From Alphaproteobacteria bacterium (lineage in GTDB: Bacteria > Pseudomonadota > Alphaproteobacteria > Caulobacterales > Maricaulaceae), in NCBI GenBank assembly GCA_018222865.1, contig JAAEZM010000015.1, forward strand, positions 24,372 to 67,141: DNA of 42,770 nucleotides, written 5' to 3'. The notes beneath the pieces were generated by a model. That model saw nothing but the letters and a program-made list of their open reading frames with translations, made no database searches and was not told where the DNA came from. Below are positions 37,369-42,770 of the stretch, in pieces. A program made the translations under genes and the position numbers. How positions within the stretch are numbered: position 1 is the stretch's first letter; the number at the start of each line of letters is the position of its first letter.

Positions 37369-37396
37369 TTGTATTAGCGCGCTAACACGCTATATC
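37369..37396 (+). promoter_or_regulatory. Candidate his operon promoter with internal palindrome
   Basis: TTGTAT (-35, 37369-37374), a 16-base spacer, TATATC (-10, 37391-37396). The perfect 12-bp palindrome TTAGCGCGCTAA (37374-37385) lies in the spacer, a typical place for a repressor operator. The TrpR-like protein encoded 34 bases downstream is the obvious candidate binder. Confidence 0.55.
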
Positions 37397-37429: not shown

Positions 37430-37720
37430 ATGTCGGAAATTGATGTGAAAGGGCTCTCTCAAGCCCTGCTAAGCTTGAAGGATGCGACTGAGGTCGAGCG
37501 CTTTCTGCGGGATTTGTTGACGCCGGGGGAGGCGAAATCCCTGTCGGAGCGCTGGCGCGTCGCACGATTGCTCGATGAGGGCGGACATTCCTATCGCGAC
37601 ATCTCGCAGCTCACCGGGGCCAGCACGACGACGGTAACGCGTGTTGCTCGTTTTCTTTCTCAAGAACCTCACCAGGGCTATCGGCTCGTTCTCAATCGAC
37701 TAAAGGAGACACAATCGTGA
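37430..37720 (+). CDS. YerC/YecD family TrpR-like regulator
   Basis: 96-residue protein with a TrpR-type helix-turn-helix (about 50-80: G-G-H-S-Y-R-D-I-S-Q-L-T-G-A-S-T-T-T-V-T-R-V). The upstream part L-L-T-P-G-E-A-K-S-L-S-E-R-W-R-V-A-R-L-L is characteristic of YerC/YecD. Genes of this family often precede his genes; some bind a ligand such as an aromatic amino acid or histidine, but the effector here is unknown. Its stop overlaps the hisG start (GTGA), so it is translationally coupled to hisG and probably controls its own operon. Confidence 0.9.
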   Translation: MSEIDVKGLSQALLSLKDATEVERFLRDLLTPGEAKSLSERWRVARLLDEGGHSYRDISQLTGASTTTVTRVARFLSQEPHQGYRLVLNRLKETQS

Positions 37721-38598
37721 CCCGTTTGCGTCTGGCAGTACAAAGCAAGGGCCGTCTCGCGGAAGGCGGAATGGACTTGTTGAAGAAATGTGGTCTGCAG
37801 TTCGCCTATGGGCGCGACCGTCTGCATCAGCGCGCCGAGAATATGCCGGTGGATATGATGCTGGTGCGCGATGATGATATCCCGAATTTCGTCGCTTCCG
37901 GCGCGTGTGATTACGGCATTGTTGGCGAAAATGTCCTGGTCGAGGAACAGTTTGCGGGACGTCGTGGAAAAGAGCTGGAAATCGCTCTAAGGCTTGGGTT
38001 TGCGAAGTGCACGCTGAAACTGGCTGCACCCAAGGATGGTCCGATCAAAAGCGTTGCCGATCTTGAAGGCAAAGCAATCGCGACATCCTACCCAGCCTTG
38101 ACTAAGGCCTATCTCGAGGAACGCGGGATATCGGCGGAAATCGTCGAAATGAATGGCTCGGTGGAAGTCGCCCCGCGTCTGAATATCGCTGAAGCGATTT
38201 GCGACCTCGTATCGTCTGGGGCCACACTTGAGGCGAACGGGCTCGCGGCGTTTGAAACTGTATTGCGAAGCGAGGCCGTCCTCGTCCGGCGCAAGACGGG
38301 CCGGGAGCCTGAGGCCGATGCCATCGCAGAGATCCTGATGCGCCGCTCGGAGGGCGTGATCAATTCCGCCCAGACGAAATACATCATGCTCAACGCCCCG
38401 GTTGACCGGCTAGAAGCGATCAAATCGCTCTTGCCGGGTTCGGATGCGCCGACCATCGCCCAGATTGTGGGGCGCGATGATGTGGTCGCCCTGCACGCTG
38501 TTTGTCGCGAGCGCGTGTTCTGGGAGACACTGGAAGCGCTCGAGGCTGAAGGCGCCCGGGCCATCCTTGTTCTGCCCATCGAAAAAATGCTGGCCTAG
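37717..38598 (+). CDS. hisG: ATP phosphoribosyltransferase, long form
   Basis: First, committed step of histidine synthesis: ATP plus PRPP to phosphoribosyl-ATP. The 293 residues include the C-terminal regulatory ACT-like domain (from about residue 220), so it is the long, HisZ-independent, histidine-inhibited form. Recognisable motifs: A-V-Q-S-K-G-R-L at the N-terminus, G-I-V-G-E-N-V, and the PRPP-binding-site region E-V-A-P-R-L-N-I-A-E-A-I-C-D-L-V. The start is GTG overlapping the TrpR-like stop. The next gene follows after 11 bases. Confidence 0.97.
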   Translation: MTRLRLAVQSKGRLAEGGMDLLKKCGLQFAYGRDRLHQRAENMPVDMMLVRDDDIPNFVASGACDYGIVGENVLVEEQFAGRRGKELEIALRLGFAKCTLKLAAPKDGPIKSVADLEGKAIATSYPALTKAYLEERGISAEIVEMNGSVEVAPRLNIAEAICDLVSSGATLEANGLAAFETVLRSEAVLVRRKTGREPEADAIAEILMRRSEGVINSAQTKYIMLNAPVDRLEAIKSLLPGSDAPTIAQIVGRDDVVALHAVCRERVFWETLEALEAEGARAILVLPIEKMLA

Positions 38599-38609: not shown

Positions 38610-40505
38610 ATGATGAGGCGATTGGATTGGACAACTGCGGACAGCGCGGCGCGTGAAGCGGCATTGGCGCGTCCGGAGGCGACGAATACGGCGGGTGAGG
38701 CGGCTCAGGCAATCGTCAACGCGATCCGTGATCGTGGCGACGAAGCCGTGCGCGCCTATGCGCAACAGCTTGATGGCTACTCGAGCGAGAGTTTTCGCGT
38801 CCCGGAGGAGTGTCTCTCCGACGCGCGAGAAGCGCTCGAGGCCAGCGATGTTGAAGCCATCAAGGCCGCGGCTGATGCGGTACGGCGCTTCCACGTCAAG
38901 CAGGGCTATAGCGGCTATTCCGTTGAGACTTGGCCAGGGCTGGTCGCCTCGCGCCGTGCGGGTCCGATCGATGTTGCCGGGCTGTATATTCCCGCCGGAA
39001 CGGCGCCTCTTGTCTCCACGCTGATCATGCTGGCCATACCCGCGCAACTGGCCGGAGTGCCGCGCATTGTTGTTGTTGCGCCTCCGGCAGGCGAGGGCGG
39101 TGTGAACCCGGCCTTACTCGCGACCGCCGAAATTCTCGGTATTGATGAGGTCTATGCGATAGGTGGTGCGCAGGCTGTTGCAGCCTTGGCATTCGGCAAG
39201 GGAGGGCTTCCGCGCGCGGACAAGATCTTCGGGCCCGGTAATGCCTATGTTGCGGCAGCCAAATCCTATGTGTCGGGGCTTCCCGGTGGTCCGGCGACGG
39301 ACCTGCCGGCAGGTCCGAGCGAGGTCATGGTCGTCGCAGACGAGAATGCGGATCCGGTTTTTGTCGCCAGCGATCTGCTCAGCCAGGCAGAACATGATGC
39401 GAATGCTCAAGTCGTTCTCGTGACCGATATGTCGGATATTAGCGAGCAGGTCGAGGACGAGCTTGCCAGGCAATTGGCAGAACTGCCACGTGTGGAAATC
39501 GCCACAGCATCGATGAAGAACGCTCGCATTATCCGGTGTGAAACACGCGCGGAAATGGCGGACGCAGCAAATGCTTATGCGGCCGAACATCTTATTCTTC
39601 AGATCTCTGAACCAGACGCGTTCTCTGAGCAAATTCGGCATGCAGGATCGATCTTTATAGGTCCGTGGGCGCCAGAGGCCGCCGGCGATTATGCCGCCGG
39701 ACCGAACCACACCCTGCCAACCGGTGGCGCTGCGAGGGCCTATGGAGGTGTAACGGTCGAGGCATTTCAGAAAACAACGACGGTTCTGCGGGCCAGCCGC
39801 AAGGGGGCGAAAGCGATTGCTCCGACCGTTGAACGATTGGCGGCCCTGGAAGGTCTGGACGCGCATGGTCGCGCCATGTCCGCACGCCGCGTTCGAGCGG
39901 ATGCGCTGGCCGCTCATCAAAAACGCCCCACGGTCCGCGCAGCCTCCAAGCGCCGGAAAACCTCAGAGACGGATGTCGAGGTGTCGATCAACCTGGATCA
40001 GACCGGACCGGTCTCGATCCGCACAGGTGTTGGCTATTTTGATCACATGTTGGAGCAGATTGCCCGCCATGGTGGGATCGCTCTGAGTGTGCGTGTAGAG
40101 GGTGATCTTCACATCGACGCTCACCACACGATTGAGGACGTCTGTTTGACCCTCGGTGAAGCCCTGGGTGAGGCGCTGGGCGACAAGCGCGGCATTGCGC
40201 GTTTCGGCTTCGAACTGCCGATGGATGAGACCCGGGCGGGTGTCTGGATCGACTTGTCGGGGCGACCGTTCGCGAAGTTTGAGGGCGAGATCCCGGGGGA
40301 GAGTGTTGGCGACTTCCCGGTCGAAATGACATCGCACGCCTTCCGCTCGATCGCCGAAAGCCTGAAGGCCGCGATCCACGTGAAAGTCGAGGGCGAAAAC
40401 GCGCACCACATGATTGAGGGCTGTTTCAAAGCCTTCGGCCGCGCCTTGCGGAGCGCCATTCGGATTGAAGGCGATGTTTTGCCATCTACGAAGGGGCAGT
40501 TGTGA
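38610..40505 (+). CDS. hisDB: Fused histidinol dehydrogenase - imidazoleglycerol-phosphate dehydratase (HisD-HisB)
   Basis: One uninterrupted 631-codon reading frame joins two his enzymes. Residues 1 to about 425 are HisD: F-G-P-G-N-A-Y-V-A-A-A-K, the zinc-ligand region Q-A-E-H-D-A-N-A-Q, D-Y-A-A-G-P-N-H-T-L-P-T, and the terminal G-L-D-A-H-G-R. Residues about 449-631 are HisB (dehydratase only): R-K-T-S-E-T-D, the metal motifs F-D-H-M-L-E-Q and H-H-T-I-E-D-V, and the second copy H-H-M-I-E-G-C-F-K-A-F-G-R. The basic linker is about 24 residues. Both halves keep their active-site motifs, so both activities (the last step and the IGP dehydratase step) should be present. An in-frame ATG at 39876 could allow separate HisB, but no ribosome site precedes it. 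It is 11 bases after hisG; the stop overlaps hisH. Confidence 0.93.
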   Translation: MMRRLDWTTADSAAREAALARPEATNTAGEAAQAIVNAIRDRGDEAVRAYAQQLDGYSSESFRVPEECLSDAREALEASDVEAIKAAADAVRRFHVKQGYSGYSVETWPGLVASRRAGPIDVAGLYIPAGTAPLVSTLIMLAIPAQLAGVPRIVVVAPPAGEGGVNPALLATAEILGIDEVYAIGGAQAVAALAFGKGGLPRADKIFGPGNAYVAAAKSYVSGLPGGPATDLPAGPSEVMVVADENADPVFVASDLLSQAEHDANAQVVLVTDMSDISEQVEDELARQLAELPRVEIATASMKNARIIRCETRAEMADAANAYAAEHLILQISEPDAFSEQIRHAGSIFIGPWAPEAAGDYAAGPNHTLPTGGAARAYGGVTVEAFQKTTTVLRASRKGAKAIAPTVERLAALEGLDAHGRAMSARRVRADALAAHQKRPTVRAASKRRKTSETDVEVSINLDQTGPVSIRTGVGYFDHMLEQIARHGGIALSVRVEGDLHIDAHHTIEDVCLTLGEALGEALGDKRGIARFGFELPMDETRAGVWIDLSGRPFAKFEGEIPGESVGDFPVEMTSHAFRSIAESLKAAIHVKVEGENAHHMIEGCFKAFGRALRSAIRIEGDVLPSTKGQL

Positions 40506-41104
40506 TGACGATTGGCCTTATCGATACAGGTTGCGCCAATCTCGCCTCGGTCCGTTTCGCGCTTGAGCGGGCCGGCCATGACTATGTCGTGGCAGCAGGC
40601 CCAAATGCTGCCGAGGATTGTGATCGTCTTATCCTTCCCGGCGTTGGTGCCGCTGCGCCAGCTATGGCTCAGCTCGAACGATCTGGCTGGGCGGATGTAT
40701 TGCGCAAGGACCAGCGCCCATTGATGGGGATTTGTCTGGGTATGCAATTGCTCTTCAACCGCTCGGCGGAGGGGGATGTCGAATGCCTGGGCTTGGTCGA
40801 TGGAATGGTTGAAAAACTCCCTGCCACTTCCGGTCTCGTCTGGCCGCATATGGGGTGGAATACCCTTGATGAGGTCAGTGATGATGAGGTGCTTCTTGGG
40901 GGTATTGAGCGCGGCACACACGTCTATTTCGTACATGGCTTTTATGCGCCGAAGGCAGCGTATACCCGGGCAGCAACCGGATATGGAGCGCCAATCAGCG
41001 CAGTCGTACGCCAGGGGCATGTCTCAGGGTGTCAGTTTCATCCGGAGCGTTCCGCAGGTGCGGGGGCCCAGATATTGAAGAATTTTGCGGAGATGTCGGC
41101 ATGA
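40505..41104 (+). CDS. hisH: Imidazole glycerol phosphate synthase, glutamine amidotransferase subunit
   Basis: Supplies ammonia to HisF. The 199-residue class I amidotransferase has the triad C77 (G-I-C-L-G-M-Q), H179 and E181 (Q-F-H-P-E-R-S). L-P-G-V-G-A forms the oxyanion-hole strand. The ATG at 40505 overlaps the hisDB stop by one base (TGATG), and AAGGGG lies about 9 bases upstream; a GTG at 40502 is also in frame. The stop overlaps the hisA start by 4 bases. Confidence 0.97.
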   Translation: MTIGLIDTGCANLASVRFALERAGHDYVVAAGPNAAEDCDRLILPGVGAAAPAMAQLERSGWADVLRKDQRPLMGICLGMQLLFNRSAEGDVECLGLVDGMVEKLPATSGLVWPHMGWNTLDEVSDDEVLLGGIERGTHVYFVHGFYAPKAAYTRAATGYGAPISAVVRQGHVSGCQFHPERSAGAGAQILKNFAEMSA

Positions 41105-41835
41105 TCCTTTATCCGGCGATTGATCTTTTGGACGGCCGGGTCGTGCGCCTTTTGAAAGGCGAGTTCAACGCGGTGACCGATTACGGCGCGGACCCTGCCG
41201 CCGTAGCGGAAGAATTCAAGGCAGATGGCAGCCCCTGGGTTCATGTCGTTGACCTGGCAGGCGCGCGTGATGGCGAACGTCGTCAAACCCCTGCGATCAA
41301 GGCGGTCAGCGATACCGGCATCAAGGTGCAGTCGGGCGGGGGTATTCGCGGGCGTCGCGATATCGACGCCTTGCTGGCGGCGGGTGTAGAACGTCTTGTC
41401 GTTGGATCTGTTGCGATCAGCGACCCGGACACCGTGCAGACCTGGATGTCTGAGTATGGCGCGGAACGGTTTAATCTGGCGTTCGATGTGCGATATCTAA
41501 ACGGTGCATACCGTCCCGCGATCAAGGGCTGGACGGATGTGCTGACGGTAACGCTTGATGATGTCATTCAAGCCTATGATCAGAGCGCGATCATACACGC
41601 CATGGCCACAGATATTGGCCGCGATGGGGATCTCAGCGGTCCCAATGTCGAGCTTTATGCGGATCTCGTGCGCCGCTATTCAGACATTCAATGGCAGGCT
41701 TCTGGCGGGATCAGCGCCCTGGATGATTTTGCTATCCTGCGTCGAGCGGGCGTCGCAGGCGCGATCAGTGGCCGCGCGCTCTATGAAGGGGAATTTACGC
41801 TCAAGGAGGCTTTGGCATGCTTGCAAGACGCATAG
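41101..41835 (+). CDS. hisA: ProFAR isomerase
   Basis: TIM-barrel isomerase acting on ProFAR (phosphoribosylformimino-AICAR-P), 244 residues. The catalytic D8 is in P-A-I-D-L-L-D-G; the phosphate loops are S-G-G-G-I-R and A-S-G-G-I-S. ATG 41101 is the true start (M-I-L-Y-P-A-I-D); an in-frame GTG at 41029 lies within hisH. It overlaps hisH by 4 bases and hisF by 19, so these three are coupled. Confidence 0.97.
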
Positions 41836-42584
41836 TGCCGTGTCTCGACGTCAAAGATGGCCAGGTCGTAAAGGGCGTAAAGTTTCGTAATCACGAAGTG
41901 GTGGGCGATATTGAAGACCTGGCTCGCCGCTATGCGGATGAAGGCGCAGATGAGCTCGTTTTCTACGATATTGCTGCGAGCGCGCGCGGTGAAACCGTCG
42001 CGCCGGAATGGGTCAGCGCAGTTGCGCAGGTGATCGATATTCCTTTTTGCGTCGCGGGTGGTATCCGGACCGTTGATGATGCGCGGGCGCGACTGTTTGC
42101 CGGTGCGGACAAGATCTCGGTGAATTCGCCGGCACTGGAAAACCCGGATCTTGTTGATGAACTCGCCGCAGAGTTTGGCAGCCAGTGCGTGGTCGTTGGT
42201 ATCGATAGCAAGGTGGTTGATCAGGCTTGGGTGGTTCATCAATATACGGGTGACCCGGACAAGACGCGACTTGCTGGTCGAAAGACACTGGAGTGGATCA
42301 GTGAGGTTGTTGACCGCGGCGCGGGTGAAATCGTGCTCAATTGCATGGACCAGGACGGCGTTCGCGATGGTTATGACATCGACCAACTCCAGGCCGCCCG
42401 GGAATTGTGCTCGACACCGCTAATCGCGTCTGGCGGTGCAGGGCGTATGGATCATTTCAAAACCGTGTTTAATGACGCCAATGTGGATGCGGCACTGGCC
42501 GCGAGCGTTTTTCATAAAGGTCTGATCGGTATAGGCGATTTGAAGGCTTATCTGATCGATGAGGGAGTTTCGATTCGTCCATGA
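41817..42584 (+). CDS. hisF: Imidazole glycerol phosphate synthase, cyclase subunit
   Basis: TIM-barrel synthase subunit of 255 residues, which with HisH makes IGP and AICAR. The catalytic D11 is in [15 protein letters not shown]; the phosphate loops are A-G-G-I-R-T and S-G-G-A-G. Its start lies within the end of hisA, and its stop overlaps the hisI start (ATGA). Confidence 0.98.
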
Positions 42585-42770
42585 TTAAAGTTGAAACGCT
42601 CGACTGGGAGAAGGTGGATGGCCTGATCCCGGCCATTATTCAGGATGTCGCGACGCGTCAGGTTCTGATGATGGGCTATATGAACAAAGAAGCATTGGAA
42701 AAAACCCAGAAGACCGGAAAGGTCCACTTCTACAGTCGAACAAAGCAAAGACTGTGGATGAAGGGCGAGA
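42581..42770 (+). CDS. hisI: Phosphoribosyl-AMP cyclohydrolase, 3' truncated
   Basis: The first 63 codons of HisI, cut by the window end. The motif [16 protein letters not shown] and [14 protein letters not shown] are typical. Whether it is fused with HisE cannot be seen here. It overlaps hisF by 4 bases. Confidence 0.95.

Follow-up and report, generated by a model that had tools for sequence, protein, structure and literature searches.

A HisD–HisB fusion gene in the histidine operon of a Maricaulis-like alphaproteobacterium and its probable origin by in-frame loss of a dead HisC domain

The fusion gene and its operon

The window analyzed here is a stretch of 42,770 nucleotides from an alphaproteobacterium of the family Maricaulaceae (GenBank assembly GCA_018222865.1, contig JAAEZM010000015.1), and its subject is a hisD::hisB gene within the histidine operon. 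A single open reading frame (ORF) on the forward strand, 38610-40505, runs from ATG to stop without an internal stop codon on reading of the frame and encodes a protein of 631 residues and 66.5 kDa in which histidinol dehydrogenase (HisD) is followed by imidazoleglycerol-phosphate dehydratase (IGPD, HisB). A sequence-only reading of the window had proposed this fusion, and both domains were found at near full profile length. The gene is a real variant among his fusions, present throughout the genomes of its genus examined, and it has arisen repeatedly; the surprise lies in the route more than in the pairing, since the fusion is probably what was left when a dead HisC domain in the middle was taken out in frame. 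The source genome is a draft of 31 contigs with an estimated completeness of 100%. Literature is cited by PubMed Central (PMC) identifier, and statements resting on it refer to the available excerpts of each source. The parts of the gene are as follows.

38610..40505, forward strand: hisD::hisB fusion gene, 631 residues, 66.5 kDa (Pfam, NCBIfam and residue checks)
38610..39920, forward strand: HisD domain, residues 1-437, last helix 417-437 (Pfam/NCBIfam; predicted model; Foldseek matches 6an0, 1kae and 1k75)
39876..39878, forward strand: in-frame ATG, HisD Met423, a site common to unfused HisD proteins
39921..39938, forward strand: junction, residues 438-443, short and loose (predicted local distance difference test score, pLDDT, below 50 at 438-440; varies among 18 proteins of the genus)
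39939..40502, forward strand: HisB (IGPD) domain, residues 444-631 (Pfam/NCBIfam; predicted model; Foldseek)

Residues 25-426 match Pfam Histidinol_dh at 485.9 bits (profile 8-410 of 411) and residues 33-426 match NCBIfam hisD at 482 bits (TIGR00069, profile 2-393 of 393, above cut-off). Pfam IGPD matches residues 472-613 at 193 bits (profile 1-144 of 144), and several NCBIfam hisB models cover about residues 441-631, with NF002111 scoring 239.8 bits against a cut-off of 231. None of the 15 NCBIfam models matching the fusion covers both domains, and none of the 29 sequences of solved structures that match it at E 1e-20 spans HisD and HisB. Neither an aminotransferase nor a HisI/HisE match was found in the chain with Pfam or NCBIfam (hisIE starts separately at 42581), and no phosphatase family was found at E 0.001; PRK05446 matches only through its HisB part (165-355), below cut-off.

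The active-site motifs reported earlier for both halves were borne out residue by residue. The HisD half keeps Q259, H262, E326, H327, D360, and H419, which we take, with roles and numbering from Escherichia coli HisD, to be Zn ligands and catalytic Glu and His residues. The HisB half keeps, by motif, counterparts of eight Mn ligands (H479, H505, H506, E509, H576, H599, H600, and E603); the eight His and Glu ligands are those named for plant IGPD (PMC10978614).

In single-chain models of the whole protein both domains were confident (mean pLDDT 88.7 for the best of five models and 73.1 for the worst). Helix 417-437 is predicted to close HisD, residues 438-443 to be loose and the first HisB strand to begin at 444. 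The junction varies in length and sequence among 18 aligned proteins of the source genus, hereafter g1 (linker and start-codon comparisons used 18 of the 19 g1 loci, L005 being left out). What had been described as a short basic linker looks like HisB's own N-terminus, as the basic stretch aligns with the start of HisB in unfused relatives; only about 438-443 is loose. The rest of the operon within the window is as follows.

37430..37720, forward strand: TrpR-family regulator (YerC/YecD); Pfam Trp_repressor 78 bits, NCBIfam TIGR02531 69.2 bits, over cut-off
37717..38598, forward strand: hisG, for the long form of ATP phosphoribosyltransferase; shares 4 bases with the regulator gene; TIGR00070 and TIGR03455 over cut-off
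40502..41104, forward strand: hisH, overlapping the fusion stop; TIGR01855 199.2 bits, over cut-off
41101..41835, forward strand: hisA, start at ATG 41101 within the listed ORF 41029-41835; Pfam His_biosynth 207.9 bits; best NCBIfam match TIGR00007, 217.8 bits, under its cut-off of 228.95
41817..42584, forward strand: hisF; TIGR00735 324.9 bits, over cut-off
42581..42770, forward strand: hisIE, 5' part, from its frame and resemblance to hisIE of relatives; cut by the window end, which is the contig end

An ORF resembling the regulator also precedes hisG among the relatives listed. HisR, of the TrpR-type family, occurs in Caulobacterales and is the first gene of the his operon in most Proteobacteria that have it (PMC9413887). 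A near-palindrome 40 bases upstream of the regulator gene has three mismatches to the proteobacterial HisR motif of the same source, which is chance level; as an operator, the site at 37370-37389 was rejected, because 48 of 100 shuffles gave as many matches over the window.

Distribution of the fusion

At E 0.001 the source genome gave a single match, covering residues 1-631, with no other HisD or HisB match. Among 41 genomes (the source genome and 40 relatives), the junction frame is open in all 19 g1 genomes, so that the absence of a stop, which the sequence-only reading had proposed to check, is confirmed in independent sequence; 18 of these loci are full length and one (G012) is cut by a contig end, and the single-contig genomes G009 and G015 both carry the fusion. 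None of the 22 relatives of other genera has it. In one of these (G034) a weak HisB match runs upstream across a TAG and HisD lies on another contig. The closest named relatives are six loci titled Maricaulis, at 71-74% identity, and we read genus g1 as Maricaulis from this resemblance. In a named collection in which 80 of 217 relatives were kept, six of the seven loci titled Maricaulis are fused. The seventh (L067, isolate IN14) is unfused: this metagenome-assembled genome (MAG), titled Maricaulis sp. IN14, has an eroded HisC domain of the kind described below and is placed beside an unnamed alphaproteobacterium (support 100), outside the main Maricaulis clade; judging from that grouping, the genus in its title is probably wrong.

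The order was sampled with 398 genomes, 119 of which matched at E 1e-110 or better. Essentially the whole query was covered in 28: 17 from g1, G366, and ten from a second genus, which belongs to a different family of the order (g31, family f4). One further g31 genome (G274) crosses the junction at a contig edge, giving 11 fused g31 genomes, and three others of g31 matched but lack the fusion. The remaining 90 matches cover HisD, some running slightly past its stop. G366 has the same junction as Hyphobacterium sp. DHS20C06 (L055).

Also fused in the named collection are two SAR86 loci (L058 and L069), one titled Gamma proteobacterium (L064) and one titled Flavobacteriales (L061), which form one clade. 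The last is a MAG contig whose his operon is SAR86-like; it is likely mis-binned, and as it groups with SAR86 it was not counted as an additional origin. The SAR86 HisD::HisB is about 40% identical to the fusion of the window. Within the SAR86 family to which the L064 genome belongs, and which includes the L058 and L069 genomes, 81 genomes were sampled and 45 gave a match at E 1e-30, which in 40 spans almost the entire chain with no stop. The other matches are three partial ones across the junction (G1180, G1209, and G1143), one of HisB only (G1166) and one that is broken (G1169), and 36 genomes gave none. The architecture is therefore not a one-off, being found in every g1 genome examined and also in g31, Hyphobacterium DHS20C06 and the SAR86 family.

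No further in-frame fusion was found among 385 genomes of the class (E 1e-105) or 398 of the phylum (E 1e-110), cut-offs that would miss very divergent fusions; the phylum sample did not show SAR86. Several candidates were rejected as fusions. Stops separate the two genes in all six Firmicutes-type hisD-hisB pairs (L066, L106, L109, L111, L112, and L113), and in G800 (L160) a single TAA interrupts the frame common to hisD and hisB. Four loci (L039, L063, L133, and L140) were classed as unfused because the hisB ORF extends upstream in a frame other than that of hisD.

HisC::HisB relatives and the route to the fusion

Of the 22 genomes of other genera, nine have hisD and hisB in a single operon and 13 have them far apart or on other contigs. 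In the operon-bearing clade of the order the gene after hisD is typically a hisC::hisB fusion. We sorted 36 such loci into three classes by reading, a sorting that is our own. The intact class comprises 12 loci of families f1 and f5 and of Marinicaulis (L033-L037, L102, and L141-L146, L102 being Marinicaulis), with a HisC part of 355-366 residues and the SK motif of the pyridoxal phosphate (PLP)-binding lysine in all 12; five measured proteins are 545-555 residues long. The operon-bearing clade probably started from this state.

The dead class comprises seven loci of families f3 and f4 (L038, L039, L147, L133-L135, and L081), in which the HisC part is 231-297 residues long and the PLP lysine is replaced in all seven (by Leu in five, and by Gln and Tyr, as in RSLSLAYGLAG and similar motifs). 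These parts are still plainly HisC, with an E value of 7.9e-46 to the intact profile, and by sequence the dead part is a pseudoenzyme domain kept in the two families.

The eroded class comprises 17 loci on 16 contigs (L062 and L137 share one), with 184-230 residues ahead of HisB and no motif; in the genera near Maricaulis the remnant measures 184-215 residues. In seven of 12 eroded loci the remnant ATG overlaps the hisD stop as ATGA; the other five show either an overlap of 8-11 bases or a gap of 1-2 bases. The predicted fold of the Oceanicaulis protein (L060) has a pLDDT of about 88 over the remnant. A search of the PDB with this fold, with 50 matches listed, gave 29 IGPD chains first and then, at ranks 30-50, only PLP-fold enzymes, among them the histidinol-phosphate aminotransferase (HisC) entries 3ly1, 1h1c, and 1fg3. 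As the first matches other than IGPD are all PLP-fold enzymes, the eroded domain is read as a probable HisC remnant, from profile and predicted fold. A separate case is L161 (G485, family f90 of the class, placed outside the order), in which hisD is followed, after a gap of 659 bases, by an eroded-HisC::HisB gene, an arrangement that possibly reflects transfer of the operon.

The HisC parts also differ in rate. In pairs that we chose, the nonsynonymous divergence (dN) of the HisC part relative to that of HisD was 2.0-3.5 in eight of ten dead or eroded pairs and 0.9-1.45 in four intact pairs. The ratio of dN to synonymous divergence (dS) for the dead or eroded part, computable in nine of the ten pairs, was 0.15-0.47, with many synonymous sites near saturation, which points to a part that is relaxed and not free debris. 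It may be kept folded to spare HisB or may have a structural role.

Separate hisC genes were scored at the TIGR01141 cut-off. All four dead or eroded genomes of a first survey (G021, G022, G026, and G030) have one, as do 17 of the 19 g1 genomes and all of eight more genomes (three of the SAR86 family, Hyphobacterium DHS20C06, Oceanicaulis, Woodsholea, Alkalicaulis, and Marinicauda). Among five genomes with the intact fusion, three (G019, G023, and G028) have no other hisC over cut-off. In the source genome and in G022 the separate hisC adjoins the same two genes, presumably glyoxalase-II-like and methyltransferase-like. The source genome also carries a HisN-type gene elsewhere (296.7 bits, over cut-off).

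The number of origins was examined with a tree of HisD plus HisB, made by a quick method with Shimodaira–Hasegawa-like approximate likelihood ratio (SH-aLRT) support only. Its 62 rows were 47 from a set of 58 loci, six more g1 and nine outgroup rows; it left out L148, which is partial, and ten loci from the same or near organisms (L049, L050, L053, L054, L055, L062, L065, L068, L070, and L097), and it held 12 of the 19 g1 genomes. The fused state requires four changes on this tree, three of them forced by its starred branches. SAR86 rows group with a Legionella row (support 96), apart from the alphaproteobacterial operon clade (98), g31 is placed among dead-HisC rows, and Maricaulis forms one clade with the eroded-HisC rows (100). 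In approximately unbiased (AU) tests a single origin was rejected for Maricaulis plus g31 (p 3.3e-8) and for Maricaulis plus SAR86 (p 0.013). The constrained groups, defined by the fused state, were tested after the tree had been seen, and the unusual composition and long branch of the SAR86 rows are a weakness common to the AU tests. Hyphobacterium DHS20C06 pairs with H. indicum (support 90) and was assigned to genus g17, which has unfused members; when it was held with Maricaulis, the tree was better by 11 log units and the grouping was not rejected (p 0.71). These data support three origins of the fusion in sequence trees and make four possible, with uncertain branching inside the Maricaulis-near clade.

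Good comparative support thus favors an ancestor in which hisD was followed by a hisC::hisB gene. A second, separate hisC would have made the fused HisC dispensable, and the dead part would have lost its catalytic lysine and shrunk by in-frame changes. Because the essential HisB lies downstream in the same frame, the HisC part would decay only by residue changes and loss of codons, never by frameshift or stop. A final deletion that took what remained of HisC, along with the stop of hisD and the start of hisC, would then let hisD read into hisB. We consider this account as a whole likely, together with its view of the product, discussed below, as two independent enzymes on a 24-mer bearing outer HisD dimers. 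The sequence-only reading had stated that the gene does not look like decay, which stands for HisD and HisB; the fusion itself is best read as the end of the decay of a HisC that lay between them.

Several observations weigh against this account. The separation of hisD and hisB in 13 of the 22 genomes limits any ancestral hisC::hisB to the operon-bearing clade. The link of the eroded domain to HisC is weak, with E 6e-4 and 28% probability to the intact profile (collinear with the C-terminal part of HisC), E 2.7e-4 and 41% to the dead profile and E 0.005 and 7% for L032 alone, and the PLP-fold matches of L060 have E values of 1.5e-3 to 1.7e-2 with low TM-scores (0.19-0.42). Two pairs of the Hyphobacterium indicum group, with ratios of 0.8 and 1.0, evolve no faster than HisD, and the dN/dS of 0.15-0.47 marks the remnant as something other than free debris. 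Support for monophyly of g1 is only 32, a low value due to G010. Two g1 genomes (G006, 90% complete, and G007, 69%) have no hisC at E 1e-30, and L067 is unfused despite its Maricaulis title. No HisC letters are recognizable in the Maricaulis linker, so that the deletion is inferred, and no HisC-remnant intermediates were found for SAR86.

The fusion could instead have been selected for a benefit of its own, such as channeling, a fixed 1:1 stoichiometry or co-localization of HisB and HisD. At least three origins are supported and the fusion is kept in many genomes per lineage, as such a benefit would have it. However, HisB catalyzes step 6 and HisD steps 9-10, with HisC and HisN acting between them (PMC1963479 and PMC8305728) and encoded elsewhere; as steps 7 and 8 are done by these separate proteins, direct channeling is not expected. 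Moreover, the lineages around Maricaulis and g31 have a HisC in decay between hisD and hisB, from which a fusion can arise without any benefit. Selection of this kind is thus unlikely, though the best placed of the alternatives.

It is improbable for this gene that hisD and hisB were already neighbors and lost the stop codon separating them, without any HisC deletion. Adjacent unfused pairs do exist: the six Firmicutes-type loci (four titled Lachnospiraceae) with their intervening stops, and G800, with both genes in one frame and a single TAA between them. The route is available for SAR86. The nearest unfused relatives of Maricaulis and g31, however, have eroded or dead HisC::HisB genes, not bare adjacency.

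We give little credence to the suggestion that free HisB is also, or only, made, whether by proteolytic cleavage at the junction or from an internal start, be it ATG 39876 or a GTG within HisB. The in-frame ATG is present in 17 of 18 g1 loci and an in-frame GTG inside HisB in nine of 18, and residues 438-440 are predicted to be loose. Yet the ATG, which the sequence-only reading had offered as a start, is codon 423 in the HisD C-terminus, at a site common to several unfused HisD proteins, and it is absent in L007. By eye, no Shine-Dalgarno-like sequence lies at the usual distance (the GGAGG of some loci is about 14 bases upstream), no start codon in the linker is conserved across the 18 loci, and a start at the GTG (residue about 458) would cut into the second strand of HisB. 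Free HisB from ATG 39876 was therefore rejected as the main product, given its HisD coding position, the lack of a Shine-Dalgarno-like sequence and the lack of a conserved linker start. An assembly or sequencing artefact, conceivable in a draft of 31 contigs, can be dismissed, since the fusion is present in 19 of 19 g1 genomes, including the single-contig G009 and G015, and its linkers show natural variation in length and sequence.

Assembly of the product and related systems

The fused chain resembles known histidine fusions in part. Fungal HIS4 (HisIE::HisD) likewise places HisD in a multi-enzyme chain, and its domain order is HisIE then HisD, whereas the chain of the window begins with HisD and ends with HisB, hisIE being a gene of its own. 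In the HisC::HisB proteins of the order, operon position, type of HisB and attachment of the partner at the HisB N-terminus are the same as in the gene of the window, but the partner is HisC (intact, dead, or eroded) with HisD separate upstream, whereas the window's chain has only a short junction. The SAR86 HisD::HisB, despite its architecture, falls off the alphaproteobacterial clade, a joint clade being rejected as given above. Enterobacterial HisNB (PMC1963479) also has a second enzyme at the HisB N-terminus and a compact his operon; its partner is a DDDD-type phosphatase, whereas the window's chain has HisD and no phosphatase domain was found in it. The heptafunctional histidine protein of Acanthamoeba (PMC6029752) likewise contains HisD within a multifunctional protein that differs from earlier fusions, with an isomerase, HisIE, HisD, and ATP phosphoribosyltransferase among its seven activities; IGPD had its own primers for amplification and was compared as HisB.

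The sequence-only reading had taken the pairing to lie outside the standard his set, and it is indeed absent from the five fusions counted in the excerpts of PMC1963479 (hisA/hisF, hisIE, hisHF, hisNB, and hisIED), which also mention hisNB in one unnamed alphaproteobacterium. The available parts of PMC10138114, PMC8305728, PMC11237513, and PMC6029752 make no mention of a HisD-HisB or HisC-HisB fusion, PMC3828012 shows hisD and hisB of Clostridium acetobutylicum as neighboring but separate genes, and no paper describing either was found in the open-licence PMC literature, as far as its excerpts go; prior notice is possible.

The product is predicted to be two independent enzymes on one chain, an IGP dehydratase and a histidinol dehydrogenase. 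IGPD forms a 24-mer of 432 symmetry with its N-terminal sheet on the outside (PMC10978614), so that 24 HisD units could hang outside it as 12 dimers. By analogy, HisB would form the octahedral core, and HisD would take the outer place held by the ancestral HisC; 24 fusion chains come to a computed 1.60 MDa. The need to reconcile two assemblies, raised in the sequence-only reading, is a smaller problem than stated there, since HisN (PMC1963479) or HisC occupies the same end of HisB elsewhere and the N-terminal sheet is external.

More tentatively, and with more doubt than confidence, the outward N-terminus of the HisB 24-mer might be a docking place whose partner has been exchanged in evolution (HisN in enterobacteria, HisC in relatives of the same order, a dead HisC as a folded cap, and HisD in Maricaulis, g31 and SAR86). 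HisC is a dimer, and dimers of HisC or HisD could sit on the two-fold axes, giving a megadalton particle. If this were true, the Maricaulis protein would be one version of a megadalton histidine-pathway particle.

Channeling or physical interaction is often concluded from the fusion of pathway enzymes. The graded relatives described here point to another route, in which a redundant middle enzyme dies in frame and erodes, and its removal joins enzymes several steps apart. The architecture has arisen independently more than once, the marine lineage SAR86 included, and caution is due before interaction is inferred from such fusions.

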